This document shows positions 1 through 21,334 of a stretch of 55,286 nt of DNA, piece by piece. The number at the start of each line of letters is the position of its first letter. Position 1 is the stretch's first letter. The position numbers and the translations under genes were made by a program. The stretch comes from Sulfurimonas sp. GTDB lineage: Bacteria > Campylobacterota > Campylobacteria > Campylobacterales > Sulfurimonadaceae. The DNA lies in assembly GCA_027019325.1 (NCBI GenBank), contig JALUWT010000077.1, forward strand, positions 1 to 55,286. The letters are read 5' to 3'. The notes under the pieces were generated by a model. It did not search any database and had not been told where the DNA came from. It worked only from the letters and a program-made list of their open reading frames with translations.

Positions 1-261
1 AAGTTCTTTAAAGTTTATATCATTATCTAATAATAAGTGAGATGTTAAATTAGCACTACCAAATGTTAAATCAATAACTCTATCACAGTTAAATTTTTTT
101 AAGTCGTGAATATATCCAAAAAAAGCAGCTCTTTCTTGTGCAATGTCAGTCGGAACATAAAGTTTTAACTCATATCTTTTTGGCTCTTTACTACTATTTT
201 GATGATTAACAAATTCATCTATTTGTTTTAAAACTGCTGTCTTGGTAACTTCATTCACCAT
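1..261 (-). CDS. N-terminus of a protein with a possible SAM-methyltransferase-like motif, truncated by window edge
   Basis: Reverse-strand translation MVNEVTKTAVLKQIDEFVNHQ...RVIDLTFGSANLTSHLLLDND; start overlaps the hsdS-like stop; DLTFGSANLT resembles a methyltransferase motif I. Confidence 0.35.
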   Translation of the reverse strand, partial: MVNEVTKTAVLKQIDEFVNHQNSSKEPKRYELKLYVPTDIAQERAAFFGYIHDLKKFNCDRVIDLTFGSANLTSHLLLDNDINFKEL

Positions 262-1633
262 TAGACTGTCCTTTAAAAACTTCATTTAAAAATACTTTAT
301 CGAGCATGTTACTTTTATCTTGTACCGAATTGGCTAAATTTAACATCTTCTTTTTCCAGACATTAAATGTTCCTATGAACTCAGATAATATCTCTTGTAA
401 CTCATTCGAAGAGTAATTAGTTGTTATATCTGGGGTATTTATTGTATGTGTGCTCATATTCTCAACACTGGCAGTATTTTCTCCCCATTCATATTGAACA
501 TGATTTAAAATATTTAGCATAGAAAAATATAAATATAATGCATTGATATTATTTTCTGGAAGAATAGCTACATGATGTCTATCCATAGCAAATGGGAAAT
601 CTCTATAAAATACTTTTGTATCACCATCCTTATTAAAACTAACACAATTAATTCTTACCACATCGTCTTCATTGATAGCCTCAACATAGTATGCAATTGA
701 TTTATTCTTTACGGATCCAGTTGCAAGTGGTATATCACCTGGGTGAGATGTGTTGTATGATTTTATATAATGATTTTTGCCTTTTACAAATTTGAAATAA
801 TTTGTATCAGATAGTGATACAGAAATAAAATTAAAATCGCTACTGGTAACATTATATGATTTCAACTTAGCCCAATTATCAAACTGTTCTGAGATAAAGG
901 GATCTTTCATCTCAAAAACCTTGCTTAAAATAACTCTCGCTGTTTTACTAATATCATGTTTTAATAAAGTCATTTTGTGTGTAAGATTTTCTGTCTGAGC
1001 TTTTTGATAGTCTATAAATTCTACTATTGCTTCTTGAATCTCAAGTGAACTATAACCATCTACTGGCTCAGGAATCATTATTTTTATTTCTTTTTTGGAT
1101 TCATCATTTAGAGTCATTCCATTGTTGGTTTGAGTTCCATATTTTGGATATTCAATAATACAATTATATGCAACATATCTATTGTTAATATCTTTATTTA
1201 CAGTGAGAATATCAATTGCTTCATTACAATAAGCATGTTTATCAGAATTATAAATTTTTACCACACCAACAGTTAGTTTAAAAGATATAAGAATATCACC
1301 TTTTTTGATTGGGATTAGTTTTTCAGATTTACCTGTATTCTTTTTATCAACAGCATATCTAACTAATTCCATAGTTGTTTTTTCTTTTGTATTTGGATTG
1401 TCAATATATAAACCATCAATAGCATTCATATCAGAAACTTTAAACCAATCTATGTCACCTTCTGGATCTCTTTTTGGTGTAAACCCCATCCTTTTTATAC
1501 AAACCATCTCATCTGGATTATCTGAATAAATTCTTTTTGTTTTAAAAACAACATCATTCAAATCTAATTCAGTATATCTTCCAGTAGCTTTTTTATATTC
1601 CTCATATTTTTCAATAAGTGTAGGATTAAACAT
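251..1633 (-). CDS. hsdS: Type I restriction-modification specificity subunit (HsdS-like)
   Basis: Two TRD-like halves; follows the methylase gene with a short overlap; likely start is MFNPTLIEKYEEY. Confidence 0.7.
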   Translation of the reverse strand: MFNPTLIEKYEEYKKATGRYTELDLNDVVFKTKRIYSDNPDEMVCIKRMGFTPKRDPEGDIDWFKVSDMNAIDGLYIDNPNTKEKTTMELVRYAVDKKNTGKSEKLIPIKKGDILISFKLTVGVVKIYNSDKHAYCNEAIDILTVNKDINNRYVAYNCIIEYPKYGTQTNNGMTLNDESKKEIKIMIPEPVDGYSSLEIQEAIVEFIDYQKAQTENLTHKMTLLKHDISKTARVILSKVFEMKDPFISEQFDNWAKLKSYNVTSSDFNFISVSLSDTNYFKFVKGKNHYIKSYNTSHPGDIPLATGSVKNKSIAYYVEAINEDDVVRINCVSFNKDGDTKVFYRDFPFAMDRHHVAILPENNINALYLYFSMLNILNHVQYEWGENTASVENMSTHTINTPDITTNYSSNELQEILSEFIGTFNVWKKKMLNLANSVQDKSNMLDKVFLNEVFKGQSNGE

Positions 1634-3263
1634 GAAATATCTCCTGAACATTTTCGTATAGCTCACCCACAAGATCTTTTATTTCATTTTGCAATTGGGC
1701 TATATCTATATCTACATCTTCATTTTTAAAACCAATTTCCTTAGAAATCTCAATTCCATCACATTTGTTTCTAATTGTCTTACTAATATACTCATAATCT
1801 TTTTTAGCACTTAAATAATCTAATATTCTCTCGATGTCATCCTCAGAATAATAATGCTTCATTTTATCCTTAGAATATGGATGTGGAGAAAACAACTTAT
1901 CTTCTTTTGTATCTGCTTTTACAATTTTAATCGTCTTGTTAAAATTAGTATTTAAAAACCATAAATGAGAACTAATGTCTGTATTTGTAAACATTGCCTT
2001 TGGTTGTTCCAATACAGCTTTAACTATTCCCATATCAAATATGTGAGATCGTATTTTAGATTCACTTGATGAATCAGCTCCCGTAGATATTAATGTGCTT
2101 GAACTAATAATACAAGCAATTGCATCTTTATTGCGATTTTCTTTTTCCAGCTTCATCAAATTGATAATATGCTGCATAAATAAAAATTGTCCATCTGATT
2201 TTTTTGGTAAAACAACTTTACCTGTTTTATCATCTTTAATTACTTCAAAATTACTATTAACACTATTCATGTCTTCTACGATGATTTTATGGTCATGTTT
2301 CCAGTCAACACCAAACGGTGGATTAGCAATAATAAAGTTAAATGACTTGTCACTATTAATTTGTTTAGCAAATATAGGATTTGTTAAAGTGTTACCATAA
2401 GCGATTTGGTTTTCAATACCTTGACTTTTTCCATCAAGAGAAGTAATTTCTAAAAAGATTTTTGATAGCAACCAACTTTGACCATTATATTCTTGTCCAT
2501 ACACAGCAATTCTTTTCGCGGTTTTTTTTCTTTTTCCTGTTGGAGTTTTATTTAGGTTATTATCAAAGTAAATAGCTGATTCAATAACCATAGATCCAAC
2601 ACCACAAGTAGGATCATAGATAGCTATTTTTTCATCTTTGCGGATTGATTCTAAAGCAGATGCACAAGCTAAATGAATAATAGATTTTTGAGTAAAATGC
2701 TGACCTGTTAAAGTTCCGGATAGTTTTTTCATTCTAGCGATTGTTGTTTCATATAAATCTTTATATTTTTCCGATGGGTAATCAATAAAATTAGCTTTTT
2801 CAACATATATGTCTAATACCATTTCTAAATAACGAGGCTCTTCAAGCTCTTCAATATATTGAGATAATGTAAAGGTTTTTTTGTGATCCAAATATATCAG
2901 ACAGCTTTCTTCTACTGAGTTTTCCACACTGTCTTGTGCAGGAGTCATATAACTTGGCTGATTAAAATAAGAAAGATTAGAACCAAGATTTTTAATATCC
3001 GCAATGATATTCAAGAAAGTGTTTATTATGTTATCAGCTTCATACTCTTGATACTTGGCATCAGTAAGCCCAAATTTGTCTCTCCAGTCAAAGGTAAATT
3101 GAGTCTTCTTGTTATCAACGAGTAACTTTAATGCCATAAATGCAAGAATTCTCTGATCATAAACAGATTCATTAATACCGATTCCTCGAAGAATATCTGC
3201 ATATGCCCAATAGAAGTCACCTATCTTGTTTTCATCTTTTTTCATATCTGGTATCTTACTCAT
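1626..3263 (-). CDS. hsdM: N-6 adenine DNA methyltransferase (HsdM-like)
   Basis: Motif I region YDPTCGVGSMVIES and catalytic NPPFG (IIANPPFGVDW). Confidence 0.9.
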   Translation of the reverse strand: MSKIPDMKKDENKIGDFYWAYADILRGIGINESVYDQRILAFMALKLLVDNKKTQFTFDWRDKFGLTDAKYQEYEADNIINTFLNIIADIKNLGSNLSYFNQPSYMTPAQDSVENSVEESCLIYLDHKKTFTLSQYIEELEEPRYLEMVLDIYVEKANFIDYPSEKYKDLYETTIARMKKLSGTLTGQHFTQKSIIHLACASALESIRKDEKIAIYDPTCGVGSMVIESAIYFDNNLNKTPTGKRKKTAKRIAVYGQEYNGQSWLLSKIFLEITSLDGKSQGIENQIAYGNTLTNPIFAKQINSDKSFNFIIANPPFGVDWKHDHKIIVEDMNSVNSNFEVIKDDKTGKVVLPKKSDGQFLFMQHIINLMKLEKENRNKDAIACIISSSTLISTGADSSSESKIRSHIFDMGIVKAVLEQPKAMFTNTDISSHLWFLNTNFNKTIKIVKADTKEDKLFSPHPYSKDKMKHYYSEDDIERILDYLSAKKDYEYISKTIRNKCDGIEISKEIGFKNEDVDIDIAQLQNEIKDLVGELYENVQEIFHV

Positions 3264-3276
3264 AATTTATCCTTAA

Positions 3277-3510
3277 CTAGCAATTTTCTTTCCATTTTTT
3301 AACAATTTTTACAATATCAGCATCATCCATCATCGATAGTAAGCACATAATGTTATTTACAGCTTTAGGGTTTAGTGTCCCTTGCATATATTTTTGATAA
3401 GTTCCTGCCGAACAATGAATTCTTGCTGCCATCTCTTTTTGGGTAATTTTCTTACCTTCTTTTGAGACAATACTGCCGTGTATTGAAATAAATAATGACT
3501 TCATGTTCAT
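3277..3510 (-). CDS. XRE-family HTH regulator of the RM module
   Basis: Small HTH protein KKITQKEMAARIHCSAGTYQKYMQGTLNPKAVNNI, just upstream of hsdM on the same strand. Confidence 0.75.
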   Translation of the reverse strand: MNMKSLFISIHGSIVSKEGKKITQKEMAARIHCSAGTYQKYMQGTLNPKAVNNIMCLLSMMDDADIVKIVKKWKENC

Positions 3511-3523
3511 TGCTCTTCCTATA

Positions 3524-3600
3524 AAATAACTATACTAATTATATCATAAAATAGTTATTTATCTCTTTTAAATAATGTAAATCATTATTATAGTTATTAT
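3524..3600. promoter_or_regulatory. Repeated ATAGTTATT operator-like motifs upstream of the XRE gene
   Basis: AAATAACTAT (3524-3533) and ATAGTTATTT (3551-3560) are inverted; another ATAGTTATTAT at 3590-3600. Confidence 0.4.
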
Positions 3601-3754
3601 ATTTAGCATATAAATATAAATCATAATGATTTTTATATGTATTATTAGTATTATAATAGTGATTATACTATGAAATTTTTGAATTAATTAAAAAAAAATG
3701 ATGTGTAATTTTTACTTTGATTGGACTATTACTTTAAAATAGTACATATTATAA

Positions 3755-3772
3755 TGATAAAAATATTTATCA
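3755..3772. promoter_or_regulatory. Palindrome TGATAAA-AATA-TTTATCA upstream of capW (candidate CapW operator)
   Basis: 7-bp perfect arms; a 16-17 nt core recurs inverted after capW. Confidence 0.6.
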
Positions 3773-3816
3773 CTATTATTGTACAATCAATAAAAGCAAC
3801 TTGAAAAGGTCAATAT

Positions 3817-4767
3817 ATGGCAAAGAAGATTGAAGAGATACTTCCAAAGATTTTAAGAGATTTATCTAATGGAATAGCCATATCTACTGTTGAAGTTGAG
3901 AAAAAATATGGCTTTAGTGCAAGTGGAGTTAGAAATCATCTAAGAACACTAGAGCAAAGATTTTATAAGAATTGTTTCAAATATGATGGTAGTACAAAAA
4001 AATGGGTTGCTACGGATAGAGGATTTTTAACAAGAGAACTTTTAGAACCAGAAGAGGTAATTGTTTTAAACGGTATATATCGTAATAAAGATAGATTAGG
4101 TAGCTCTTTATCAAAAACACATGAAAATATGGTTGAGAGCTATTTAAAGAGAACTAAGAGCTATATTTTTAAGCAACATATAGCAGAAGATGTAACTGAA
4201 GATATGGAACAGGTTTTTGCCATATTTAAAAGAGCGATAAGTTCCAAAAATATAGTTGAACTAGATTACCCTTCAAAAGGTGCTTTGAAAACGAGAAGAG
4301 TATTCCCATATAAAATTGTGTACATAGAATATTATTGGTATCTGATATGTTATGAAGAAAACAAGAAAATAAAATCATTTCGTTTATCTCTTATACAATC
4401 TCCTCGCATACTCGATGAAGTGTATAAATATGATTTTGAAAATGTTAATTTGAGGCTAAAGTTAGCGATGAACGCTTATGTTGATTTTGAAGAGCCCATA
4501 AATACTGTTGACATTTTAGTAGCTAATCATCTTGTAAATCACATAGAGATAGCTTCATACTTTATGGCATGGAGAAAAACAGAGTATGTTACAGAAATTA
4601 ATAAAGTAAAGTATAGAAGATTTGAAGTGAATACTACTAACCCTAACTATAATGATATTATCCCTACAATTTTAAAATATATGCCACATATGCTTGTTGA
4701 GTCTCACGATGAATTAAAAGAAGCGATTGAAGAAAGGATGACAATTTATCAAAATAGTTACAAATGA
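3817..4767 (+). CDS. capW: HTH-WYL transcriptional regulator, CapW-like CBASS regulator
   Basis: N-terminal winged HTH and WYL-like domain (VELDYPSKGALKTRRVFPYKIVYIEYYWYLICYEE); directly upstream of a CBASS operon. Confidence 0.8.
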   Translation: MAKKIEEILPKILRDLSNGIAISTVEVEKKYGFSASGVRNHLRTLEQRFYKNCFKYDGSTKKWVATDRGFLTRELLEPEEVIVLNGIYRNKDRLGSSLSKTHENMVESYLKRTKSYIFKQHIAEDVTEDMEQVFAIFKRAISSKNIVELDYPSKGALKTRRVFPYKIVYIEYYWYLICYEENKKIKSFRLSLIQSPRILDEVYKYDFENVNLRLKLAMNAYVDFEEPINTVDILVANHLVNHIEIASYFMAWRKTEYVTEINKVKYRRFEVNTTNPNYNDIIPTILKYMPHMLVESHDELKEAIEERMTIYQNSYK

Positions 4768-4782
4768 TAAATATTTTTATCG
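4765..4782. promoter_or_regulatory. Palindrome GATAAA-TATT-TTTATC between capW and the CD-NTase (candidate CapW operator)
   Basis: TGATAAATATTTTTATCG; reverse complement matches the 3755-3772 core; overlaps the capW stop codon. Confidence 0.6.
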
Positions 4783-4895
4783 TTACATACTATACAATAC
4801 ATGATAGGTTTAAAATATTAGACAAATAAACACATTTATAGAAGCAGAACTCTGTTTACTATAATTGGAAATTTTAATCTAGATGGAGGATTATA

Positions 4896-5909
4896 ATGGC
4901 AAAGTTACAAAAAGAGTTCGGAAAATTTCATGAAGAAATAAAGCTCAAGAAATTTGATGAAAATAAAGATCTTAGAGAGAAAAGAGATTTACTTTTTAAA
5001 GATCTCAGAGAGGGTCTTAAAGACAAAAACATCCCAGGTACAACTAAAAAATTAACTTTCAGGGAAATTAATCAAGGTTCTTATTCTATGAATACGGGGA
5101 TTAAGCCTCAAAACGAAGATTATGATATTGATATAGGAGCTGTATTTAATATAACTAATGATGAGTATAACTCCGCAGAGTTAAAAAAGCTTGTGAGAGA
5201 TGCGCTAAATAAAGGAAATAGAACAGTTGTTTATAATCGTCCATGTTTAACCGTTGAGTATAAAACGGAAGATTATCATGTAGATTTAGCTGTATACTCT
5301 GAAAATAATGATGATATCCATATTGCTTGGGGAAAGGAGTTTTCGAGTGAAAAAATATGGTATAAGTCTGAACCTGAAGAGCTTACAACTTGGGTGTCTG
5401 ATGTATCTACTGTTGATGATGAATCTGCACAGTTTAGACGTAGTGTAAGATATCTTAAAAAATGGAAAGAAAAACATTTTTCAGCGAGTGGAAATAATGC
5501 ACCGCCATCTATTGGATTAACAATTCAAGCAAGGAAGGCTTTTAGCAGTTATGCCGCATATGATAATAATTATGACTTAACAGCACTAATAAGAGTTGTA
5601 ACATATATTAAGCAGGAATTTTCATCAAAATACGATTCTGATTCAGAAGTGTGGAAAGAGAGTATATCTGTAGCATTACCTGTTCAACCCTATAAAAATG
5701 TTTATTATAAAATGTCTTTAACCCAGCAAGATAATTTTTATAATAAAATATGCGACTTATTAGAACTTCTTGAAGCTGTAGATGCAGAAGAGTCAGATTT
5801 TGAAGCTAGTAAACTACTACAAAAGATTTTTGGAACTGATTTTCCACTTGCAGATGATATAAGAGCTTCAGAAAAAGCTCCATATGTAACTACAGGTCAG
5901 AATGCGTGA
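4896..5909 (+). CDS. CBASS CD-NTase (cGAS/DncV-like nucleotidyltransferase)
   Basis: GSYSMNTGIKPQNEDYDIDIGAVF plus VDLAVY nucleotidyltransferase motifs; followed by Cap2/Cap3/SAVED genes. Confidence 0.9.
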   Translation: MAKLQKEFGKFHEEIKLKKFDENKDLREKRDLLFKDLREGLKDKNIPGTTKKLTFREINQGSYSMNTGIKPQNEDYDIDIGAVFNITNDEYNSAELKKLVRDALNKGNRTVVYNRPCLTVEYKTEDYHVDLAVYSENNDDIHIAWGKEFSSEKIWYKSEPEELTTWVSDVSTVDDESAQFRRSVRYLKKWKEKHFSASGNNAPPSIGLTIQARKAFSSYAAYDNNYDLTALIRVVTYIKQEFSSKYDSDSEVWKESISVALPVQPYKNVYYKMSLTQQDNFYNKICDLLELLEAVDAEESDFEASKLLQKIFGTDFPLADDIRASEKAPYVTTGQNA

Positions 5910-7636
5910 CAGAGGATGAGATTGATACTTTAGTTTCTAAAGTATCATTATCAATAGTATTATCATATAAAAAGTCAGAAGAAAATAAGAGATATAATTT
6001 TGCACTTAAAGGTAGAAAAAGAGTCTGGAATATTTCATTGGATTTTCCCAATGACTTTCCTAAAAGTTTCCCAATAGTAAAGCTATTAGATATGTCTGAA
6101 GTTGGAAAAGTGGCACATGTTAATTCTGTTTGTACAGTTTGTATAGAAGAAAGTGACAGTGTACTTATTAATCATTATGAAGCAGTAAAAGTTCTAGAAC
6201 ACTATCTAGAAGATATTAAAACTTCTTTGGATAATTTTAGCTTAAGAGCATATCAGTATCAATTAATGGATGAATATGAAGGGTATTTTAACGCTAGTTT
6301 AGTAGATAGTGTAAATTCATTTTACAAAGCCACTGAAACATTAGAGTATGTATATTTGAAAGTGACACAGGTTTTAAAGAATAAAGATATATTTAATAGG
6401 GCACAAAGATATGATTATCCTGCCCTTATTTTAGATATGGATAATCTAGCCCCAAAAAACTATAGTAATGTGAAAAATATTAATGCAACAACTATAAAAG
6501 CTATTCATATACCATTGTTTAAACAAATTCTACCACCATCAAATGCAGAAAAAATATCATTGAGTTATTTGTATAATATTATCAAAAATATCACTTCAGA
6601 GAATCGAAATATTTTAGATATATTTTTAACAAAAGAAAAAGAAAAAAGACAATTTTTTGTTCTATTAAGCTTACCAAGAACAGAGAATGAAAGAACACAA
6701 TTATTATTAGAGTTTAGTTCAAAAAATAAATTAAAGCATCCTTTAACGGAACCCTCCGATGATTGGTTTATTGATTTATATTTTATAAACAGGCATAATC
6801 AAGAGTACTTACTTGAGAGGGGCGGTGCTGAAAATAGTTTACAAAATAAACATGTGACCATAGTAGGCTGTGGTTCAGTAGGTGGAGAAATTGCATATAT
6901 GTTGGCTAAAGCAGGTATTGGTAATTTAACATTGGTTGATAATGATAAATTACATCCTGACAATATTTACAGACATAGACTTGGTGGAAATATGATTAAT
7001 TATCTACCTAATAAAAAAACTGGAAAAGTAAAGCAATATAGTAAAACATTAGTATTAAAAAATTCATTAGAAAAAGATTTACCGCATATCAATGTTGATA
7101 TCAGATCAAAAAAGTTTGAGCAAGTATTAGATGAAGATTTTGTAAATGAATCAGACATGATAATAGTCGCTATAGGTTCTCCTATGCCAAGTTTTACAAT
7201 AAATGAAGAACTAAAAAAATTAGGAATTAATAAAGTAATTTTTTGTTGGAATGAACCAGCAAGTTATGGTGGTCATATAGTGCAACTGAACCTTCAGGAA
7301 TGTTGCTTACAGTGTCTTTACACATCAGACGATACTGGAGAGTTAGGAATATCTAAATTAGCTTTAGTAAAACCATCTCCAAAGATTTCAAAAAACTTAA
7401 CTGGGTGTGGAGGTGTATTTACACCTTTCTCATATTTAGATTCTTCCCAAACTGCTTTATTGGCATCTAAACAATGTGTTCGTGCCTTACAGACAGAGCT
7501 GGACTCCACTGCAATTAGCTGGAAAGATGAGGGAAATGGTATGTTAGAAACAACACAAAGATATGAAGATATTAATACCGTTGAGATGTCTTCTATCCAA
7601 TGTTCAGTAAAATGCAAGGTATGTAATAATGGATAA
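5906..7636 (+). CDS. cap2: CBASS Cap2, E2-E1 fusion ubiquitin-transferase-like enzyme
   Basis: N-terminal E2-like region with VCTVCIEE; ThiF/E1 fold VTIVGCGSVGGEIAYMLAKAGIGNLTLVDNDKLHPDNIYRH; E1-type cysteine TGCGGVFTPF; GTG start with 4-bp overlap. Confidence 0.92.
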   Translation: MTEDEIDTLVSKVSLSIVLSYKKSEENKRYNFALKGRKRVWNISLDFPNDFPKSFPIVKLLDMSEVGKVAHVNSVCTVCIEESDSVLINHYEAVKVLEHYLEDIKTSLDNFSLRAYQYQLMDEYEGYFNASLVDSVNSFYKATETLEYVYLKVTQVLKNKDIFNRAQRYDYPALILDMDNLAPKNYSNVKNINATTIKAIHIPLFKQILPPSNAEKISLSYLYNIIKNITSENRNILDIFLTKEKEKRQFFVLLSLPRTENERTQLLLEFSSKNKLKHPLTEPSDDWFIDLYFINRHNQEYLLERGGAENSLQNKHVTIVGCGSVGGEIAYMLAKAGIGNLTLVDNDKLHPDNIYRHRLGGNMINYLPNKKTGKVKQYSKTLVLKNSLEKDLPHINVDIRSKKFEQVLDEDFVNESDMIIVAIGSPMPSFTINEELKKLGINKVIFCWNEPASYGGHIVQLNLQECCLQCLYTSDDTGELGISKLALVKPSPKISKNLTGCGGVFTPFSYLDSSQTALLASKQCVRALQTELDSTAISWKDEGNGMLETTQRYEDINTVEMSSIQCSVKCKVCNNG

Positions 7637-8120
7637 CTCATGGGAAATAGAAATAAAAGGCATTGGACTACTTAAGATATCAGGTGAGCTTATTGAACAA
7701 TTAAAAGCATATCAGCAGCTCTCCACAGGTCAACTAGAATCTGGTGGTGTTCTTATAGGCAGTTTTTTGAATTCTGGCGGATACCTGATTATTAACAAAT
7801 TTACTCCACCACAAAATAATGATAAGCAGGGTAGATATCTTTTTTACCGCTCAAATGAGCATAATAAAGTTGTTAAAATAATTTGGGAAAAATCAAGTCA
7901 CATTTCAACATATGTAGGGTTATGGCATACACACGCTGAACCAATTCCTAGCTATTCTTCTCAAGATAAAAAAGATTGGAATGATACTCTTAATCAATCT
8001 GAATATGAGGGGAATAAATTATTTTTTTTTATCGTAGGACAAAGACATATAAGATGTTGGATGGGAATAAAAAAGATGTTTAGAAATAAAATAGAATTAA
8101 TAGGAGAAATACATGTTTGA
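7629..8120 (+). CDS. cap3: CBASS Cap3, JAB/JAMM isopeptidase
   Basis: JAMM motif: upstream ESGGVLIG glutamate and GLWHTHAEPIPSYSSQDKKDW. Confidence 0.92.
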   Translation: MDNSWEIEIKGIGLLKISGELIEQLKAYQQLSTGQLESGGVLIGSFLNSGGYLIINKFTPPQNNDKQGRYLFYRSNEHNKVVKIIWEKSSHISTYVGLWHTHAEPIPSYSSQDKKDWNDTLNQSEYEGNKLFFFIVGQRHIRCWMGIKKMFRNKIELIGEIHV

Positions 8121-9183
8121 GAAATGTTTAGCACTACTTAGGTATATCTTTGATACTTATATTAGATTTTGTAAAAGTACTTATCCAATGATTAAGTATG
8201 GGGTTAGGCTCTTATTGGGTACTCCATTGTTAGTGGGAGGAATTAATTTATTGCTATATGTGCCTTTGCCAGAAGATGTAGATTTTAAACTAATGGATAT
8301 ATCATATGGAGAAGTATCATATATCTCAATAGGAACAACAATTATAACAACTATATTAGGGGCAATACTCATAGCAGTAGGCTTAATAATGGCTAAACAA
8401 AAGGCAAGAAAAACTTCAAAAGTTTTAATTACATCTATGTTGGAAGAATCTGCTGAATTCCCAGATGATATATTAACAGATATAGAAAAAAAAGATGCTC
8501 GTGAAATGGTAGTCTTAGGATTAGTAGAAACAGAGAACTATGTTAACCAGTCAATAAAGATGTTTAATGCTGAACAAGAAGTGAATATATATGATCGTTT
8601 TATATTGAATCATGATTGTAAAAAGGTTCTATTGGGAGGTAGAGCTAGAGTGCCTTTTTTGGTTGCTTATGGCAGTAGATTTAGAAATATATCTGCAAAA
8701 ATAGTGTATTTCGACCAATTACATCAAAATCAAAAGTGGGAACTGTTAGATGATGTGAATGAAGATATATCAATTAATTATGAAGATATAGAAAGCATAG
8801 AAGCGAATAGAAATGGTGATATAGGTTTGGCAATAAGCTTCACAAGTCAAATATTAGATAGTCAACTCCCTCCATCCATTAAAAATCATACATTAATGAT
8901 TTCATCAAGTGTAGAACCTACAAGAAATTTAATAAAGAATCAGGATAATCTGCAAAAAATATCACATGAAATAAAATCTATTATAGATAAGCTATCTGTT
9001 AAAATAAACTGTAAATATATTCATATGTTCCTTTCAGTTCAAACATCTGTAGCATTAGAAATTGGTAGAAATTATCAAGAGGGAATGCATAAAAACTTTA
9101 TTGTGCATAATTTTGATGCAGTAGAGGGAAAATATGGTTGGAAAATTAATATTTGTAAAAATAAAATAGAAATACATGATTAA
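8113..9183 (+). CDS. cap14: CBASS effector: two transmembrane helices plus SAVED domain (Cap14-like)
   Basis: Two N-terminal hydrophobic helices then SAVED-like C-terminus KYIHMFLSVQTSVALEIGRNYQ...FIVHNFD; overlaps cap3. Confidence 0.8.
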   Translation: MFEKCLALLRYIFDTYIRFCKSTYPMIKYGVRLLLGTPLLVGGINLLLYVPLPEDVDFKLMDISYGEVSYISIGTTIITTILGAILIAVGLIMAKQKARKTSKVLITSMLEESAEFPDDILTDIEKKDAREMVVLGLVETENYVNQSIKMFNAEQEVNIYDRFILNHDCKKVLLGGRARVPFLVAYGSRFRNISAKIVYFDQLHQNQKWELLDDVNEDISINYEDIESIEANRNGDIGLAISFTSQILDSQLPPSIKNHTLMISSSVEPTRNLIKNQDNLQKISHEIKSIIDKLSVKINCKYIHMFLSVQTSVALEIGRNYQEGMHKNFIVHNFDAVEGKYGWKINICKNKIEIHD

Positions 9184-9200
9184 GTATATGGGGCTTTAAC

Positions 9201-10199
9201 ATGTCACTTATTCCATTTGCATATTCAACTCCATTAAAAAAACTTGTCGATGTAAGTGATGTGCCAAGTGGATTGTCTTGCATGTGTTTATGTCCATCAT
9301 GTAAAATGAAACTTCTTGCCAGAAAGGGTGAAGTAAATGAACATCATTTTAGTCATTTTGATAAAGCTATCAATGATTGTAATTATTCTTACTGGGTCTC
9401 TGTTCGAGATATGGCAAAACAAATTCTTGAAGCTTCTAAGTATATTAAAGTAAAGTTAAATAGTATATCCACTTTACAGGTACCACCATACTCCACTCAA
9501 TCAAATAGAATAGAACTTTTTCATATAAAAAAAGTACAAGGAAGTGACTATGTAGCAACTACATCTATTGGAAGAATTAAAATTTATCTAAGTACTCCAG
9601 AGCACACCAAGTTCTCACAAATAATAAAACAAGAAAGCTTTACGGATAATTTAGTTCTCAATATTGACCTATCTAAATATCAAAATTCCAAAAAAAGTGC
9701 TTTGGAAATACTTATTATAAATGACACAAAATGTAAAACTTTCTTATTACCTCGTCATCGATTAAGAGGACAAGAAGAGTCGTATATAGATGAGGATGAT
9801 GAGCTAGAGGAAAAAGTAAGTAATCCTACCCCTACTAAAGTAAAACAGAGTGATGAGGATGAGATATTACAAAAACTGTATCTTGATAGAAGAAATATTC
9901 AAGCAGGAATGCTTAAAACGATAAGGGAGATGAAGCCATTTTATTACGAGAGTGTTTTTGAATGCATGCATATGAATCCTTCTAAAGATTTTGAGGTTGT
10001 TCGCAGTAATGGTATTATTGACTATGTATCCTACAAGGAAAGTTTTTTTGCTTCAACAAAAATAGGTATTTACAATATAGTGTATGTCTATGATGAGGAT
10101 GAGTTTATTAAAGTGGCTAACACGACAAATAGTGATAACATATGTTATGCAATGGACAGATATCTCAATGAGTTGAATGAGGCAAATTTAGTATTTTAG
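9201..10199 (+). CDS. CoiA-like zinc-motif protein, function unknown, at end of the CBASS operon
   Basis: N-terminal LSCMCLCPSCKMKLLARKGEVNEHHFSHF resembles CoiA-family CPxC...HHFSH; 17 nt after cap14. Confidence 0.6.
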   Translation: MSLIPFAYSTPLKKLVDVSDVPSGLSCMCLCPSCKMKLLARKGEVNEHHFSHFDKAINDCNYSYWVSVRDMAKQILEASKYIKVKLNSISTLQVPPYSTQSNRIELFHIKKVQGSDYVATTSIGRIKIYLSTPEHTKFSQIIKQESFTDNLVLNIDLSKYQNSKKSALEILIINDTKCKTFLLPRHRLRGQEESYIDEDDELEEKVSNPTPTKVKQSDEDEILQKLYLDRRNIQAGMLKTIREMKPFYYESVFECMHMNPSKDFEVVRSNGIIDYVSYKESFFASTKIGIYNIVYVYDEDEFIKVANTTNSDNICYAMDRYLNELNEANLVF

Positions 10200-11669
10200 A
10201 TTGGTATCCTTTTCCTTAAGATATAAACTTGGAAAATAAAAAACTTCCCTACAAAGCCTAATATAACTATCACCATGAGCATCTTTTTTGACATTTCTCA
10301 AATCAATATACACATTATCCGGAACATGAATATTATGCAAATATCCTATCAGTATTTTAAAAAAATATTGCTGATGTTCTTGTTGATATTGAGGGTTATT
10401 CAGTATCTTTATCAGTCGCTGCTGAAGTAGTTCTTTGCTCTCATGTGCTTTTTCTAGTTTTGCTCGTGGGATGATGCTTATTTTTAGTTCGTATGAAAAT
10501 TGTTTAGATAAAAAGTTAGTAAACTCTGTTAATGAACTTCTTTGACCTGGATATATCCATAAATAGCCTTCCAAGATATACATATTTGGAGTTTCATTTT
10601 TAAAGTAATCACAATATTGAAGAAATTTTACCGCTGGAGTTAAAGCTAATCGTATAGATCTAAATGTAATCTTTTTCGATTTGAATTTTTGTAAAAGTTT
10701 TTCATAATAACTTTGTAAAAGGTTGGACCTATAATCATCTTTTTCAAAAGCATTGAGGTATTTCTGAATAAGGTTTAAATTTGCATATTTATCTTTAACA
10801 GCCCCATCAATTTTAAGTACACCAGCACTCTCAAAATAAAGATGGACTAATAGGTTTTTGCCTTGTGTAGCATGAGGGAAAGTTGCGAGTAACTCTTCAT
10901 AATTAGGTAATCTATCTAATTGAACACTTAACTTATCAATTTGAAAAAAATACTTTTGATAGTTTTGTATATGTGTTGATGTAAATAATACCCCTCGTCG
11001 CAATTTCAACCAATTTGAAAAATCAATAAAATGTTGATATGTGTGTTGTGACATTGCTTTTGCTATGAATGTGGCTTTTTTAATAAGAGCATTCTTGTAG
11101 TGACAACCTGAGCATATATGTCCAAATCCAGCAGAAAACTTCTCTCCACACATATTACAAATTCTAGTAATCTCGATAGAACATATTTTACAGAGTGGTC
11201 TCTTATCTAATTGATATGAAAAGGGTATTCTTCTATAGCCACAACCATTGCATGTTGGTAAAGTTTTATCATAGCACTTTTGACATAATAGTTTTTGTGA
11301 ACCATCAATTAGAGTACGGTTAGATGTCGGTGCATCATTTTGCTTACAAATAGAGCACTTTCTATGCTGTGTGTAATATTTAGCACATGAATTACAGACT
11401 GAACCATACTTAGTAATCTTACCATTAGTATATTGAGTTTTTTTACATCTAATGCAAGGCTTATCTTTTACTTGACAAAACTTACAGATAGGAGGTCTTT
11501 GAGAATAGTAAATTTTTCTTCGCCTGTTGCACTTGATACATATTTTATAATGAAATAGATAGTGATAACATTTTTTACAATAGTGTTTTCCTTGATATCT
11601 ATAATCCCAATCTGTTAAAATAAGACTACAATAATCACAACTCGTATTTTCAGGTAAACTATATCTCAT
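10188..11669 (-). CDS. tnsF: Zinc-finger-rich TnsF-like target selector (inactivated tyrosine-recombinase-like)
   Basis: Many CxxC pairs in the N-terminal half; core-binding-like region after residue ~290; no recognisable HxxR...Y catalytic set; overlaps tniQ start; element is in comM. Confidence 0.7.
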   Translation of the reverse strand: MRYSLPENTSCDYCSLILTDWDYRYQGKHYCKKCYHYLFHYKICIKCNRRRKIYYSQRPPICKFCQVKDKPCIRCKKTQYTNGKITKYGSVCNSCAKYYTQHRKCSICKQNDAPTSNRTLIDGSQKLLCQKCYDKTLPTCNGCGYRRIPFSYQLDKRPLCKICSIEITRICNMCGEKFSAGFGHICSGCHYKNALIKKATFIAKAMSQHTYQHFIDFSNWLKLRRGVLFTSTHIQNYQKYFFQIDKLSVQLDRLPNYEELLATFPHATQGKNLLVHLYFESAGVLKIDGAVKDKYANLNLIQKYLNAFEKDDYRSNLLQSYYEKLLQKFKSKKITFRSIRLALTPAVKFLQYCDYFKNETPNMYILEGYLWIYPGQRSSLTEFTNFLSKQFSYELKISIIPRAKLEKAHESKELLQQRLIKILNNPQYQQEHQQYFFKILIGYLHNIHVPDNVYIDLRNVKKDAHGDSYIRLCREVFYFPSLYLKEKDTNLKY

Positions 11670-12733
11670 ATCAACTCTAAAAGTTCACTATAGAGACGAT
11701 TAACTTCATCTTTAGCATTTGGCTTTATGGCATATTGCTTTGGATTTTCAATTTTTGAACTATCGGTTATTTTTAAAAATTTAGATAGATACAATATTGT
11801 TGGAGACATGGAAGCAGGCTTTGATGAAAAAACTTTGTTTGTTGTTTCTAGCTGCTGCAAAAGTTTCTTAATAGTCTCTATATCGGCTTGCAGAAATTGA
11901 TAAGTCAGCTTCAATAAAAACTCTCTATCATCTATGCTCATCTTCTCAAAGACATGCATTATTTTACTTTCTTCCATATAGTGAATATCGAGATCGAGTG
12001 TCTCAAAGAAAAGATGATATTTCTTTAGTTTGTATATTTGTTGAAAAAATGGGATTATGCTTCTAATGGTCATAAACAGGTCTTGTAGCGATTGTGTGTG
12101 CAATGCTGGAAAAGATGTTATTTGTGTATTAAAAATGGCTTTATTGAGTATCTCTTGAAACTTAAGAGCTTTCCCATCGGCGGGTGTAGTTTCTGCACCT
12201 CTTAAGTCAAATCCGCATGAGCTACATAGGTATATTTTTGGTGTGTCATACTTTAAAAGTTGAGGAGAAAATATAATCCTACAGTTTGGGCATTTATTTA
12301 GAAGTTTGATCTTGTGAACAGGACACCCTATGTTCCATGCTAATCGCCATTGTCTTTTTAAATATGGAGTTGAATCACTAAGACATTTAGAACAAAAGTG
12401 CATTCCATTTGTTTGAGATAAACCTCTCTTACCTCTAGGAATTAAAAAATACCATAAACCTAACGGATTCAAAGGCTTATCAATAATTTTTTGGAGATAA
12501 GGCTCTAATGTTAAATTTTTAATCTCTTCTGGAGTAAGTGCTGTCATTTTTGCTAAAGAATAAGCTTGTTGTTTTGGTAAGTGTTTGTCTAAATCTTTGT
12601 TCCAAGCTTTATACTCTTCCCATAAAGCGATATAAAAGCTTCGTGGGTCACTTCCATTTGCAATTGAACTTCTTATGAGCCAAGAGTTAAGCGACTCATC
12701 ACTAAAAACTTTTGGCTCAATTGAAAGTTTCAT
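11666..12733 (-). CDS. tniQ: TniQ-family transposition protein
   Basis: DESLNSWLIRSS start, zinc motifs CSKCL...NIGCPVHKIKLLNKCPNCR...CSSCGFDLRG; follows tniB. Confidence 0.9.
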   Translation of the reverse strand: MKLSIEPKVFSDESLNSWLIRSSIANGSDPRSFYIALWEEYKAWNKDLDKHLPKQQAYSLAKMTALTPEEIKNLTLEPYLQKIIDKPLNPLGLWYFLIPRGKRGLSQTNGMHFCSKCLSDSTPYLKRQWRLAWNIGCPVHKIKLLNKCPNCRIIFSPQLLKYDTPKIYLCSSCGFDLRGAETTPADGKALKFQEILNKAIFNTQITSFPALHTQSLQDLFMTIRSIIPFFQQIYKLKKYHLFFETLDLDIHYMEESKIMHVFEKMSIDDREFLLKLTYQFLQADIETIKKLLQQLETTNKVFSSKPASMSPTILYLSKFLKITDSSKIENPKQYAIKPNAKDEVNRLYSELLELI

Positions 12734-12734
12734 T

Positions 12735-13649
12735 TTAAATAGGTATCTCTCTAGGTGTTAGAGAGTTGGTCGGTTTAATCCATTTAAACTTATTGATAAT
12801 TTCAAGAGTTATTTCCTCTGTTTCATTTTTAATGGCAAAAGAGGCACACTCTATTAAAAGTCTATGCAAGTTACCTAAATTACCTTGGGAAATCATATGT
12901 AGAAGCGTGGCTTTCTCTTTAGATGCAAGATTAGAAGGTTTTTTAAGTGGTAATCTTTTTTCAAATGCTTGCAGGAGTACTCTAAAATCTTTATTGAGTT
13001 CCCACTTTGATAATTTAATCAAGTCAAATCTGCTACTAAGTTGTGGGTCAGAGGTTAAAATTAACGAAGCCTCTCTTAGTCCAACACCTACGATAGGTAT
13101 CATAAGTTTTGTGCCAATATTTTTAAGTGCATCCATCACATTGCGTTGCTGTTTAGAAGTACCTCTTAAAAAATGGTGTATCTCATCAATTATAAGTATC
13201 TTCACATTGCACTCTTGCATCTGGTGAAAAACTTGATGTCGCAGTTTTACAAGAGTATCTCCTGGATTAAATGGCGACCAAAAGGATTCTAATATAGAAG
13301 TATATAAATCTTTTACATCGGCATTATCAGAGGCTAGTGCTAAAATAACAGGTCTAACAATTACACTCATCTCGTTCTCATCTTCAATACCATAACTGTG
13401 ATGTTTTTTCTCAAATGAAGAGATTATTGAAGTCTTACCAATATTAGACTCTCCAATAATTAAAAGATTCTGCATTCTAGGTTTTTTTGGTCTATCCATT
13501 AGTTGATTAAGCAAGCTGTGAATCTCTTTTATTTTCGGATATTCAATCAAAATATCTTTATGCATATATCGTATTCTATCTTTTGCATCCAATAAAACGA
13601 TATCTTGACACTGCTCGTTTAGATGTTTATACACTATTTCCATTACCAA
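12735..13649 (-). CDS. tniB: TniB/TnsC AAA+ ATPase
   Basis: Walker A GESNIGKTS, Walker B VKILIIDEIHHFLRG. Confidence 0.93.
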   Translation of the reverse strand: MVMEIVYKHLNEQCQDIVLLDAKDRIRYMHKDILIEYPKIKEIHSLLNQLMDRPKKPRMQNLLIIGESNIGKTSIISSFEKKHHSYGIEDENEMSVIVRPVILALASDNADVKDLYTSILESFWSPFNPGDTLVKLRHQVFHQMQECNVKILIIDEIHHFLRGTSKQQRNVMDALKNIGTKLMIPIVGVGLREASLILTSDPQLSSRFDLIKLSKWELNKDFRVLLQAFEKRLPLKKPSNLASKEKATLLHMISQGNLGNLHRLLIECASFAIKNETEEITLEIINKFKWIKPTNSLTPREIPI

Positions 13650-15535
13650 TCCTCTGCTATATCTGAAACATCTTCATCCCAAAAATCATCATCTTGAACT
13701 TTTGGTACTATCTCTTTTGGTGGGGTCTGCTGAACCATCTCTTTATCTTTATTTTTGAGTCTCTGTTTTGCACGTCTTGCTTTTTTGCTTTTTTTCGATG
13801 CATCTTCTATCTGTCTATTTAGCTCTTCGTGCGCTTCTAGTATTTCAGCATTATTGATTTGTCTTGAACCAGACTCTCGTAGATGAGCTTTAATGGACTC
13901 CAATTCCCATAGAGTCATATCTGGCATTGATTGGTCTGCTGCTGGAATTTTAAAGTACTCTTGAGTTTCATCATTATAAAACCAAATAAATTTTATGTTC
14001 CGTGGATCTCTTTTAAAAATAAACCGCTTTTTCTTTCCATCATCATCGAGCATATTTATTTTTGAACGTAATAGATGGTCATAATAATTTATACCATCTA
14101 TATTAACACCATTCTTTTGAATAGTTCTTTTAAAGATTGGTAAAAAATCAATAGTTACACTTAATGGGTCTGTAGGTTTTGGCATTAATCCAACTGGTGC
14201 ATCTTCACCAAATACACCATCTTCCCAAAGTTGTTCTGGAGATAGATTGATTCCTGTATGTTTTCTCTTATGGTATATTTTTGTAATGAAAGTCACTAGC
14301 CATTTCTCAAATTCACTAAATGTCATTGATGAATGTTTATCTGAATCATACTCTTGGCGTTTTTGTATATTTGAAAATGTAGTACCTGGTATTTCATGAA
14401 CTGCATTCATAAGAGTGCCTATTACTCTTTCAATATGCCCTCCAAAGTTAGATCTTCCAACGGGACGAAATTCGATATTTATTCCATGAGCTAATCCCGC
14501 AGCTTTAATAGCCTCTGCTCTAAAATCTGCACCATTATCGACATGGATAGTCTCCGGAAAACCCCAAACATCCCAATTAGAATCAATATCTAGTTCTAAA
14601 AGGAGTTTGTCTTTTGGAAGTACCACATTTGTAATACACATAGCAACAGAAGTAACACTCGGAGCACTAAGCGATAGATAATATCCAACAATCATTCGAC
14701 TATAGATATCAATCGCTACCGTTATCCAAGGTCTTCCTATTGGTTCTCTGTGTTCATCATCAACTAAGATTAAATCTACAGGAGTATGGTCAATCTCAAT
14801 AAGTTGCATAGGATAATCAGATTCAAACTTTCCAGGAACAGGCTCAAATTTAGTTCTTGCCATAGAGCGATTGCCTTGCTTCTTAAGTACCTCATATTCT
14901 GAGAGTTTGTGAATCCTATTTCTGATTGTATTTTTTCCCGGTGCAACAATCTCACGGTTTTTGCATTCAATGTTTATCTTGCGAATTACTGCTTGAATAG
15001 ATGGTTTTTGTTTAGAAAGATAGTAGGTGCTAATAATATTTTGCATAATCTCTTCCGTTGCAAAATCTAGTCTAGTCTCCCCTTTCTTCCTTCCCGATGG
15101 TTTTGGTAGTAAACCGAGAAGAGTGCCAGTTGATTGGTATCGTCTTAGCCATCTATAGAGTGTCGTATAGTGAATATTAATTTTTTTTGCATGCTCTTCA
15201 ATCTCTTTACGTGAGATATTATCAGATAATAGAGGTTCTATAGCTAGATACTTTTTTTGTATCTCTTGAAATTCACTATCTGTGTATTCGCCTATATCAT
15301 TAAAGATTGCTAGCTTGATATCTTTACCATTTGAAATAGGCTTTATATCGCTTATTCGTAGTCTCTTTGCTCTTTTTGTTTTTATATCAATACCAACAAC
15401 TTCACTAAAGTCAATGACACTAGAGATTTTATACACTTCGCTCTGATACTCAACATACTCGTTTTCTTTAATTTGAATACTGCTCCTATTGAGCTTTATT
15501 GATTGTACTTCTTCTTTATGCATCATCCCCTCCAA
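13643..15535 (-). CDS. tniA: TniA/TnsB DDE transposase
   Basis: Mu-type integrase core IEIDHTPVDLIL...VAIDIYSRMIVGYY...IHVDNGADF...GHIERVIGTL. Confidence 0.95.
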   Translation of the reverse strand: MEGMMHKEEVQSIKLNRSSIQIKENEYVEYQSEVYKISSVIDFSEVVGIDIKTKRAKRLRISDIKPISNGKDIKLAIFNDIGEYTDSEFQEIQKKYLAIEPLLSDNISRKEIEEHAKKINIHYTTLYRWLRRYQSTGTLLGLLPKPSGRKKGETRLDFATEEIMQNIISTYYLSKQKPSIQAVIRKINIECKNREIVAPGKNTIRNRIHKLSEYEVLKKQGNRSMARTKFEPVPGKFESDYPMQLIEIDHTPVDLILVDDEHREPIGRPWITVAIDIYSRMIVGYYLSLSAPSVTSVAMCITNVVLPKDKLLLELDIDSNWDVWGFPETIHVDNGADFRAEAIKAAGLAHGINIEFRPVGRSNFGGHIERVIGTLMNAVHEIPGTTFSNIQKRQEYDSDKHSSMTFSEFEKWLVTFITKIYHKRKHTGINLSPEQLWEDGVFGEDAPVGLMPKPTDPLSVTIDFLPIFKRTIQKNGVNIDGINYYDHLLRSKINMLDDDGKKKRFIFKRDPRNIKFIWFYNDETQEYFKIPAADQSMPDMTLWELESIKAHLRESGSRQINNAEILEAHEELNRQIEDASKKSKKARRAKQRLKNKDKEMVQQTPPKEIVPKVQDDDFWDEDVSDIAEDW

Positions 15536-16240: not shown

Positions 16241-16374
16241 TTGTAGCTTGTTTAGTTGGATATGTTCTATGTTGTAGCATGGTTTATAGGTATTTGTAGC
16301 AATGTTAAGTGGAATAATCATCTATAAAGTCCTTATTTAGTGTTATATTGTAGCAGGTTTTAGTGGAAATGTCA
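16241..16374. mobile_element. Right end of the Tn7-like/Tn6022-like transposon with four TnsB-type repeats, ending TGTCA
   Basis: TTGTAGC repeats at 16241, 16272, 16294 and 16348 with related tails; the last runs to TGTCA at 16370-16374, then comM coding frame. Confidence 0.85.
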
Positions 16375-17015
16375 GCGGGAGTCATAAAGCCCGGATTGGT
16401 GAAGTTGGATTAGCGAACAACGGCATACTCTTCTTTGATGAGCTGCCATACTTTTCCAAATCTGTATTAGAGTCTCTGCGTGAGCCTATGCAGGAGAACA
16501 AAATACACATCTCACGTGTCAATGCAAAAGTGGAGTATCCGGCAAAATTTCTTTTTATCGGAGCGATGAACCCTTGTCCCTGTGGAAATCTTTTGGATGC
16601 GCATAAGGAGTGCCGCTGTAATGAACTTGAAATTCAGAGGTATAAAAACAGACTCTCTGAACCTTTTTTAGACAGGATTGACATATCGGTTGTGATGCAA
16701 AATGTAAGGGCTGAAGATAAGCCGAGTTTCTCTTCCAAAGAGTTGCATAAAAAGGTTGTTGAGGCAAATATTTTTAGACAAAAAAGAGGGCAGAAAAATT
16801 TTAATGCTAAGATGGCTGATAGTGAATTAGATGCGTATTGTGTGATGAGTGCAGCAGCAAATGAAACTTTGGCAATGGCCATAGAGCGCTTTCGCCTCTC
16901 TTTTAGAAGTATAAAAAAAGTGCAGAAAGTCTCTCGAACGATTGCAGATTTGGCAAGTTCTGAAGTGATTGAAAAAGAGCACCTGCTCGAGGCACTCTCA
17001 TATAGAAGACGTTAG
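16375..17015 (+). pseudogene. comM: 3' fragment of comM (YifB-family Mg-chelatase-like ATPase) interrupted by the transposon
   Basis: In-frame GSHKARIGEVGLANNGILFFDELPYFSKSVLESLREPMQENKIHISR...AMNPCPCGN, starting immediately after the TGTCA end. Confidence 0.93.
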
Positions 17016-20698: not shown

Positions 20699-21334
20699 AT
20701 GGTGATTGCATATATAAGACCAGATAAGAATTTTGCACCTGCACATGAACAATTGCAGTTGATAAACTCTTATGCTATGACGAACAATCTTGTTATTGAT
20801 GATGAATTTGTTGATTACACATCCCAAAACAAGCGTCTCCAAGAGAGAAGCGAAGTAACAAAATACTTTCAGTCAAAAATCAGAACGACACTGCTTATTT
20901 ATGATGTCTGGGTATTGACTACAAATATGGAAGATTTGATTCAGATGTTTTCCTGTCTGCTTAAAAATGAATTTAATGTTCATTTTATTAAGCAATCTGT
21001 TATAATGACACAACAGAGCAGTGTGATGCTTGTATTGGGATTGATGGATCAGCTTCGTCAAAGAGTTCAGAATGAATCCAAAAGGGTTATTGGTCGACCA
21101 AAGGGGAGTCGTTCGAATTCAAAATTTGATGTATATATAAATGATATTATTGCATTTATAAAAGATGGTAAAAGTGTGAGCGAAATGGCAAGGGTTTTAA
21201 ATGTGAGCAGAAGTTCACTCAAAGACTACATAGAGTCACGTGAACTGAAGCAGGTCGCATTTGGATCACTGCTGCCTAAAGCGCCAAAAGATGCAGAAGA
21301 ACAGGTAATCAATACAATTACCTGTCCAAATTAA
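20699..21334 (+). CDS. Serine-recombinase/resolvase-like protein with C-terminal HTH, possibly a repurposed regulator
   Basis: Resolvase-like N-terminus MVIAYIRPDKNFAPAHEQLQLINSYA and C-terminal IGRPKGSRS...DGKSVSEMARVLNVSRSSLKDYI; YxRVS serine motif not conserved. Confidence 0.7.
   Translation: MVIAYIRPDKNFAPAHEQLQLINSYAMTNNLVIDDEFVDYTSQNKRLQERSEVTKYFQSKIRTTLLIYDVWVLTTNMEDLIQMFSCLLKNEFNVHFIKQSVIMTQQSSVMLVLGLMDQLRQRVQNESKRVIGRPKGSRSNSKFDVYINDIIAFIKDGKSVSEMARVLNVSRSSLKDYIESRELKQVAFGSLLPKAPKDAEEQVINTITCPN

Follow-up and report, generated by a model that had tools for sequence, protein, structure and literature searches.

How does a Tn7-like transposon in a Sulfurimonas-group bacterium come to lie in comM, and does it occupy the same site as the AbaR/Tn6022 elements of Acinetobacter, as the preliminary description of this locus had proposed? 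The window analysed here is the whole 55,286-bp contig (C77) of a draft Sulfurimonas-group genome (218 contigs, 94% complete, 7.7% contaminated). The contig starts inside the element, and the left end, together with the second copy of the predicted target-site duplication, lies off the contig.

The junction at 16362-16385 reads AGTGGAAATGTCA/GCGGG/AGTCAT, where the slashes separate transposon, predicted duplication and comM. The sequence TGACATTTCCACT has a single exact occurrence in the window, at 16362-16374 on the minus strand, and all its other matches have 2 mismatches. The DNA to the left of TGTCA is a Tn7-type right end followed by tnsA, and not comM. To the right, the frame from 16380 (GSHKARIGEVGLANNGILFFDELP...) to 17015 encodes the C-terminal 211 codons of ComM/YifB, as expected from the earlier proposal that a comM frame begins directly after the TGTCA terminus. 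The identification is based on Pfam (Mg_chelatase, 6.5e-43; Mg_chelatase_C, 4.9e-26), on the NCBIfam model TIGR00368, of which positions 287-499 are matched, and on 96% identity to the intact ComM of G026, the closest relative.

The empty site is found in the same relative. The comM gene of G026 reads GGAGGTGGGAGTCAT across the insertion point without interruption, and a comM match was obtained in 53 of 60 related genomes, nearly all with uninterrupted frames of about 500 amino acids. The insertion point lies between the third glycine codon and the serine codon of a GGGS motif, such that Walker A (GCGKS) and Walker B (ILFFDE) of ComM fall on opposite sides of it. ComM should therefore be inactive in this host. 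Neither an intact comM spanning the site nor a second ComM C-terminal half was found in the 218-contig bin. Searches of the bin likewise found no N-terminal half of ComM and no counterpart of the DNA upstream of the G026 comM, and a search of this genome for the duplication joined to a transposon end, the pattern of a left junction, gave no match. Since the contig does not reach the left end and no comM 5' half was found in the bin, GCGGG is assigned as a 5-bp duplication by comparison with relatives that have complete duplications at this position (GGGGA and GCGGC), and its second copy would lie at the left end.

The features of the window that bear on the element are collected in the table.

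Features of the element and of its junction with comM (coordinates in the window)
Feature	Position	Strand	Evidence and remarks
Type I R-M HsdS	251..1672	-	PADLOC Specificity_I 8.3e-09; subunit R not in contig
Type I R-M HsdM	1626..3263	-	PADLOC MTase_I 9.4e-48
WYL-domain regulator next to CBASS, in the position of CapW	3817..4767	+	Pfam WYL 2.5e-11
CBASS CD-NTase cyclase	4896..5909	+	PADLOC 7.4e-110
CBASS Cap2-type E1-E2 protein	5906..7636	+	PADLOC 1.8e-200
CBASS Cap3-type JAB peptidase	7629..8120	+	PADLOC 1.7e-61
CBASS effector, 2TM-SAVED	8113..9183	+	PADLOC 1.2e-114; Pfam SAVED
ORF convergent with tnsF, CoiA-like N-domain	9201..10199	+	Pfam CoiA_N 2.4e-05, just below cut-off; not recognised as TnsE
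tnsF, 493-aa comM target selector	10188..11669	-	12 CxxC knuckles (six modules), residues 1-195; homology to Acinetobacter Tn6022-type TnsF
tniQ, 355-aa short adaptor	11666..12733	-	Pfam TniQ 9.8e-22
tnsC, 304-aa AAA+ ATPase	12735..13649	-	Pfam TniB 4.8e-60, above cut-off
tnsB, 630-aa DDE transposase	13643..15535	-	Pfam Mu-transpos_C above cut-off, rve slightly below
tnsA, 233 aa	15516..16217	-	Pfam TnsA N and C domains, above cut-off
Right-end array, four TnsB-type repeats TTGTAGCnnnnTTnnnnGGA	16241..16374	+	Repeats at 16241, 16272, 16294, 16348
Terminal pentamer TGACA/TGTCA, transposon right end	16370..16374	-	Same TG[TA]CA termini in relatives
GCGGG, one copy of the predicted 5-bp target-site duplication	16375..16379	.	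Homologous position to GGGGA (G172), GCGGC (G347), GCGGT (A. baumannii)
comM 3' half	16375..17015	+	Walker B ~16425-16442, stop 17013-17015; Pfam, TIGR00368, G026 identity

The right end contains four copies of a TTGTAGC-type repeat (TTGTAGCnnnnTT) adjoining the junction, and a search across the genome found close copies of this motif at this right end only. The genes tnsA, tnsB, tnsC, tniQ and tnsF all point inward from it. TnsB is 73-74% identical to the TnsB proteins of two related Campylobacterota elements, G548 and G425, and the tniQ and tnsF genes overlap by 4 nt at an ATGA junction. At 355 and 493 aa, their products agree in size with the short TniQ (about 360 aa) and the TnsF (about 490 aa) of Tn6022-like transposons. 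With high confidence the element can thus be described as a Tn6022-like transposon of the Tn7 family, represented here by at least 16.4 kb from its right-hand side and inserted in comM, presumably under the guidance of TnsF. The Tn6022-like, TnsF-guided family is known, and the present element is a further member of it.

The comparison with Acinetobacter establishes the identity of the site codon by codon. In A. baumannii CP104448.1 the 5' and 3' halves of comM overlap by GCGGT, directly before the serine codon (TCA) of GGG/S, and tnsA faces the 3' half. In the window, GCGGG stands directly before the homologous serine codon (AGT), and the codon, the phase and the orientation are those of A. 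baumannii. The comM 3' half begins at the same place in nine further elements from Betaproteobacteria, Gammaproteobacteria and Methylacidimicrobium. Three other Campylobacterota elements are also found at GGG/S, two with complete duplications (G172, GGGGA; G347, GCGGC) and one, G279, known by its right end only. The proposal of a site in common with AbaR/Tn6022 therefore stands, and so does that of a Campylobacterota host: the related loci G172 and G425 belong, according to their record names, to Sulfurimonas STE_9 and STA_12. The nearest relative of the element is L068, a contig of a Campylobacterales metagenome-assembled genome, the TnsF of which is 86% identical to that of the window. Its left junction, where the comM 5' half ends GGTGGAGG/TGTCATTTCC, is the only end available, and the break may be one base off the others. 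A TnsE homologue stands beside the left end of L068, and the TnsE of Tn6022 is likewise placed near the left end by Faure et al. (PMC10293859).

The preliminary description offered no reason for the coincidence of sites. The TnsF target selector, already published for Tn6022, explains it. Faure et al. (2023, PMC10293859) showed for A. johnsonii Tn6022 that insertion into comM depends on TnsF, that this protein interacts with TniQ, and that it requires a 10-bp region in the Walker B codons of comM. The window TnsF is 24.7-26.4% identical to the best Acinetobacter TnsF proteins over 96-97% of its length (tblastn, E 1e-36 to 7e-49). TnsF matches were found by tblastn in 90 plasmid records, 51 of them from Acinetobacter, and in an annotated example the TnsF homologue stands after TnsA, a DDE transposase, TniB and TniQ. 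A scan of genome contigs with the single TnsF sequence gave no loci and an alignment-based scan gave 17; no TnsF relatives were found in the viral contigs scanned. The 493-residue frame has no full Pfam match, and NCBIfam contains no model matching TnsF, TniQ or the TnsE homologue. AlphaFold gave a confident model of TnsF from the window (pLDDT 86), and Foldseek aligned it weakly with PINCH LIM, IntI and Cre (E 0.03 to 2, none significant). The structural matches being weak, it is on homology that the window TnsF is taken to have a tyrosine-recombinase-like fold that probably lacks a catalytic pocket. Choice of the target by a TnsD-like TniQ alone is not favoured, TniQ being encoded here by a separate, short gene beside tnsF.

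The likeness to the Tn6022/AbaR backbone extends to the gene order tnsA-tnsB-tnsC-tniQ-tnsF (TnsF being the former orf3/tniE), to the length of TnsF and its 12 CxxC knuckles, to the comM codon and orientation, to the site of the 5-bp duplication, which in the window is a predicted one, and to the TG[TA]CA termini. The two differ in that their proteins are only 25-47% identical and in that the present host is a campylobacterotan. The cargo of the window element includes anti-phage defence genes of the CBASS and type I R-M kinds in place of antibiotic-resistance islands. No TnsE was recognised in the window contig, which stops short of the left end.

Other explanations of the locus have to be weighed against that of TnsF-guided insertion. 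A transposon contig might have been falsely joined to a fragment of comM during assembly or binning, and the draft state and contamination of the bin, as well as the missing 5' half of the gene, speak for such an artefact. However, the join lies precisely at TGTCA, and its codon is shared with independent insertions (G172, G347, G279, A. baumannii), a precision that a chimera would not produce. Moreover, comM and metH are neighbours in both the window and Sulfurimonas G425, and G172 too has metH nearby. An artefact is thus very improbable. A small serine-recombinase-like ORF with a Resolvase N-terminal domain and an HTH is located at 20699-21334 of the window, between metH and a ccoG-like gene.

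It is less far-fetched, though still unlikely, that the insertion is degraded or one-ended, for example a product of recombination, instead of a simple transposition with a matching left end. No left end is present in the contig or was found in the bin, and stacked, partly deleted elements do occur in comM of Arcobacter caeni; yet none of the five tns/tni genes is broken, nothing is missing from the right end, and in L068, a close relative, the left junction is normal. The least credible alternative, to which we give almost no weight, is a different device that enters comM, either an active tyrosine-recombinase transposon (Tsy) or a CAST guided by a crRNA. Both are known to insert in comM (PMC10293859, PMC11406308). 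The Tsy transposon of Zoogloea also uses a TnsF homologue to enter comM, but it moves by tyrosine recombinase, has an active TnsF, inserts in the other direction and consists of YRec, HTH and TnsF genes with no Tns core, whereas the window has tnsA, tnsB and tnsC and a TnsF beside a short TniQ. The type I-B1 CAST shares with the window element its Tn7-like nature and comM as its attachment site, but is guided by crRNA (PMC11406308); in the 8 cargo ORFs scanned with PADLOC, which belong to the right-hand part of the element, no Cas effector genes or other Cas proteins were detected, apart from a match to a WYL-regulator model.

Taking the TnsF-guided reading, and by analogy with the reconstituted A. 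johnsonii Tn6022 system, the insertion may be pictured as follows. The conserved stretch of comM that surrounds the Walker B codons would be bound by TnsF, which would also contact the short TniQ. TniQ would recruit TnsC, which in turn would activate TnsA and TnsB. These would excise the element and integrate it some 57 bp upstream of the Walker B aspartate codon, with the right (tnsA) end toward the comM 3' half and a 5-bp duplication just before the serine codon of GGG/S. The resulting inactivation of ComM should lower recombination of divergent DNA after its uptake, and this could also make loss of the element by transformation less likely.

The element was also said to carry defence genes and to be able to reduce DNA uptake by its host. 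The former is confirmed by PADLOC, which identifies type I R-M subunits and a type II CBASS operon (cyclase, E1-E2, JAB and 2TM-SAVED); judging by its position, the WYL regulator next to this operon presumably has the role of CapW. The latter needs correcting, since ComM acts in recombination after DNA uptake and not in uptake itself (PMC11472951). In A. baumannii, CBASS loci are found in 40% of the comM interruptions that are not due to AbaR, and loss of comM is associated with non-transformability (PMC11472951). The window element resembles these CBASS-carrying insertions in its interrupted comM and its cargo, but comes from another phylum, PMC11472951 covering Acinetobacter and Legionella only. 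The window genome has ComEC- and DprA-family genes, which makes natural transformation plausible in this host.

Searches of Campylobacterota revealed about a dozen TnsF elements, and all those with a readable comM flank are inserted in comM, at three places. Site a (GGG/S) holds the window element and those of G172, G347, G279 (right end only) and L068 (left end only). Site b (NPCP/C, NPCPC) is occupied in G341 (CCTTG) and, by a left end, in Arcobacter caeni (G357). Site c (ECRC) is occupied in G425 (CAGAT), G702 (GCAGA, with a slightly changed left terminus) and G548 (right end only), and by a remnant in G357. The 5-bp duplications are complete in G172, G347, G341, G425 and G702. The comM gene of A. 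caeni (L054 9935-12047, L055 ~6108) holds two stacked TnsF-type elements: site b carries a left end, and site c a right remnant that consists of tnsA and the first part of tnsB and belongs to the clade of the window, with no comM DNA between them.

TnsF elements are also found outside comM. One in G451 (L071 ~1855-9914, Epsilonproteobacteria DE12.003) is nearly identical to that of G172, which belongs to another genus; it has a TnsE homologue and plausibly moved by the TnsE route. Elements with full-length TnsF are present on large plasmids with no comM nearby, namely a Methylobacter plasmid (L061) and A. baumannii pC13-2 (L059), the latter carrying copper-resistance genes.

The number of zinc knuckles in TnsF varies with the site. 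Each of the 13 TnsFs examined from site a has 12 CxxC knuckles, while the five at the downstream sites have 6 and 6 (site b) and 8, 4 and 0 (site c); this association, noticed after the fact in a small sample, gives a Fisher p = 1e-4 if relatedness is ignored. The TnsF of G702 (L099 12462-13052) has only 196 residues and no zinc finger, and its element lies in comM with the complete 5-bp duplication GCAGA. Miscalled starts were considered as the origin of the short forms and rejected: each short tnsF gene begins no more than 4 nt from the tniQ stop codon, which its start overlaps in G425, G357 and G341 and follows by 2-4 nt in G548 and G702. As the proteobacterial relatives at comM all have a full-length TnsF and lie at site a, the short forms look derived.

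The trees add a further observation. In the TnsABC tree the window groups with G425 and G548, with G702 outside (95/95), and thus stands among site-c elements, whereas in the TniQ tree it falls outside a well-supported group of G425, G548, G702 and G519 (100/99); support in the core tree is borderline, and the data provide two or three independent contrasts only. The simplest reading of this disagreement is an exchange of the tniQ-tnsF cassette, and it suggests that such a selector cassette was exchanged in the lineage of the window. These observations can be combined into a tentative proposal, to which we give slightly less than an even chance: the zinc-finger array of TnsF would decide the site in comM, 12 knuckles directing the element to site a and loss of N-terminal modules moving it some 67-79 codons downstream, to site b (6 knuckles) or site c (8, 4 or 0), and the tniQ-tnsF cassette of the window would have come, by exchange, to a core that otherwise inserts at site c, the site moving with the cassette. 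In the site-c elements without zinc fingers, TniQ or the C-terminal part of TnsF are candidates for reading the target. As a lead only, noted by eye and after the fact, site c is 54 nt upstream of the aspartate codon of FLDRID, and site a 57 nt upstream of the Walker B aspartate codon.

No description of this relation between zinc fingers and site was found in the passages of PMC10293859 consulted or in a full-text search of open-access papers for TnsF with comM; the relation is the novel part of the analysis and a lead worth following. Nature provides a series of TnsFs with 12, 8, 6, 4 and 0 knuckles, each tied to a defined site in one gene, so that it becomes directly testable which part of the selector sets the position of insertion.

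The element extends TnsF-guided homing on comM to Campylobacterota. A homologous codon is used across a very large evolutionary distance, as a selector that recognises a conserved ATPase motif would lead one to expect. Campylobacterota thus become a second phylum with defence-loaded elements that disrupt a transformation gene, as reported in Acinetobacter.
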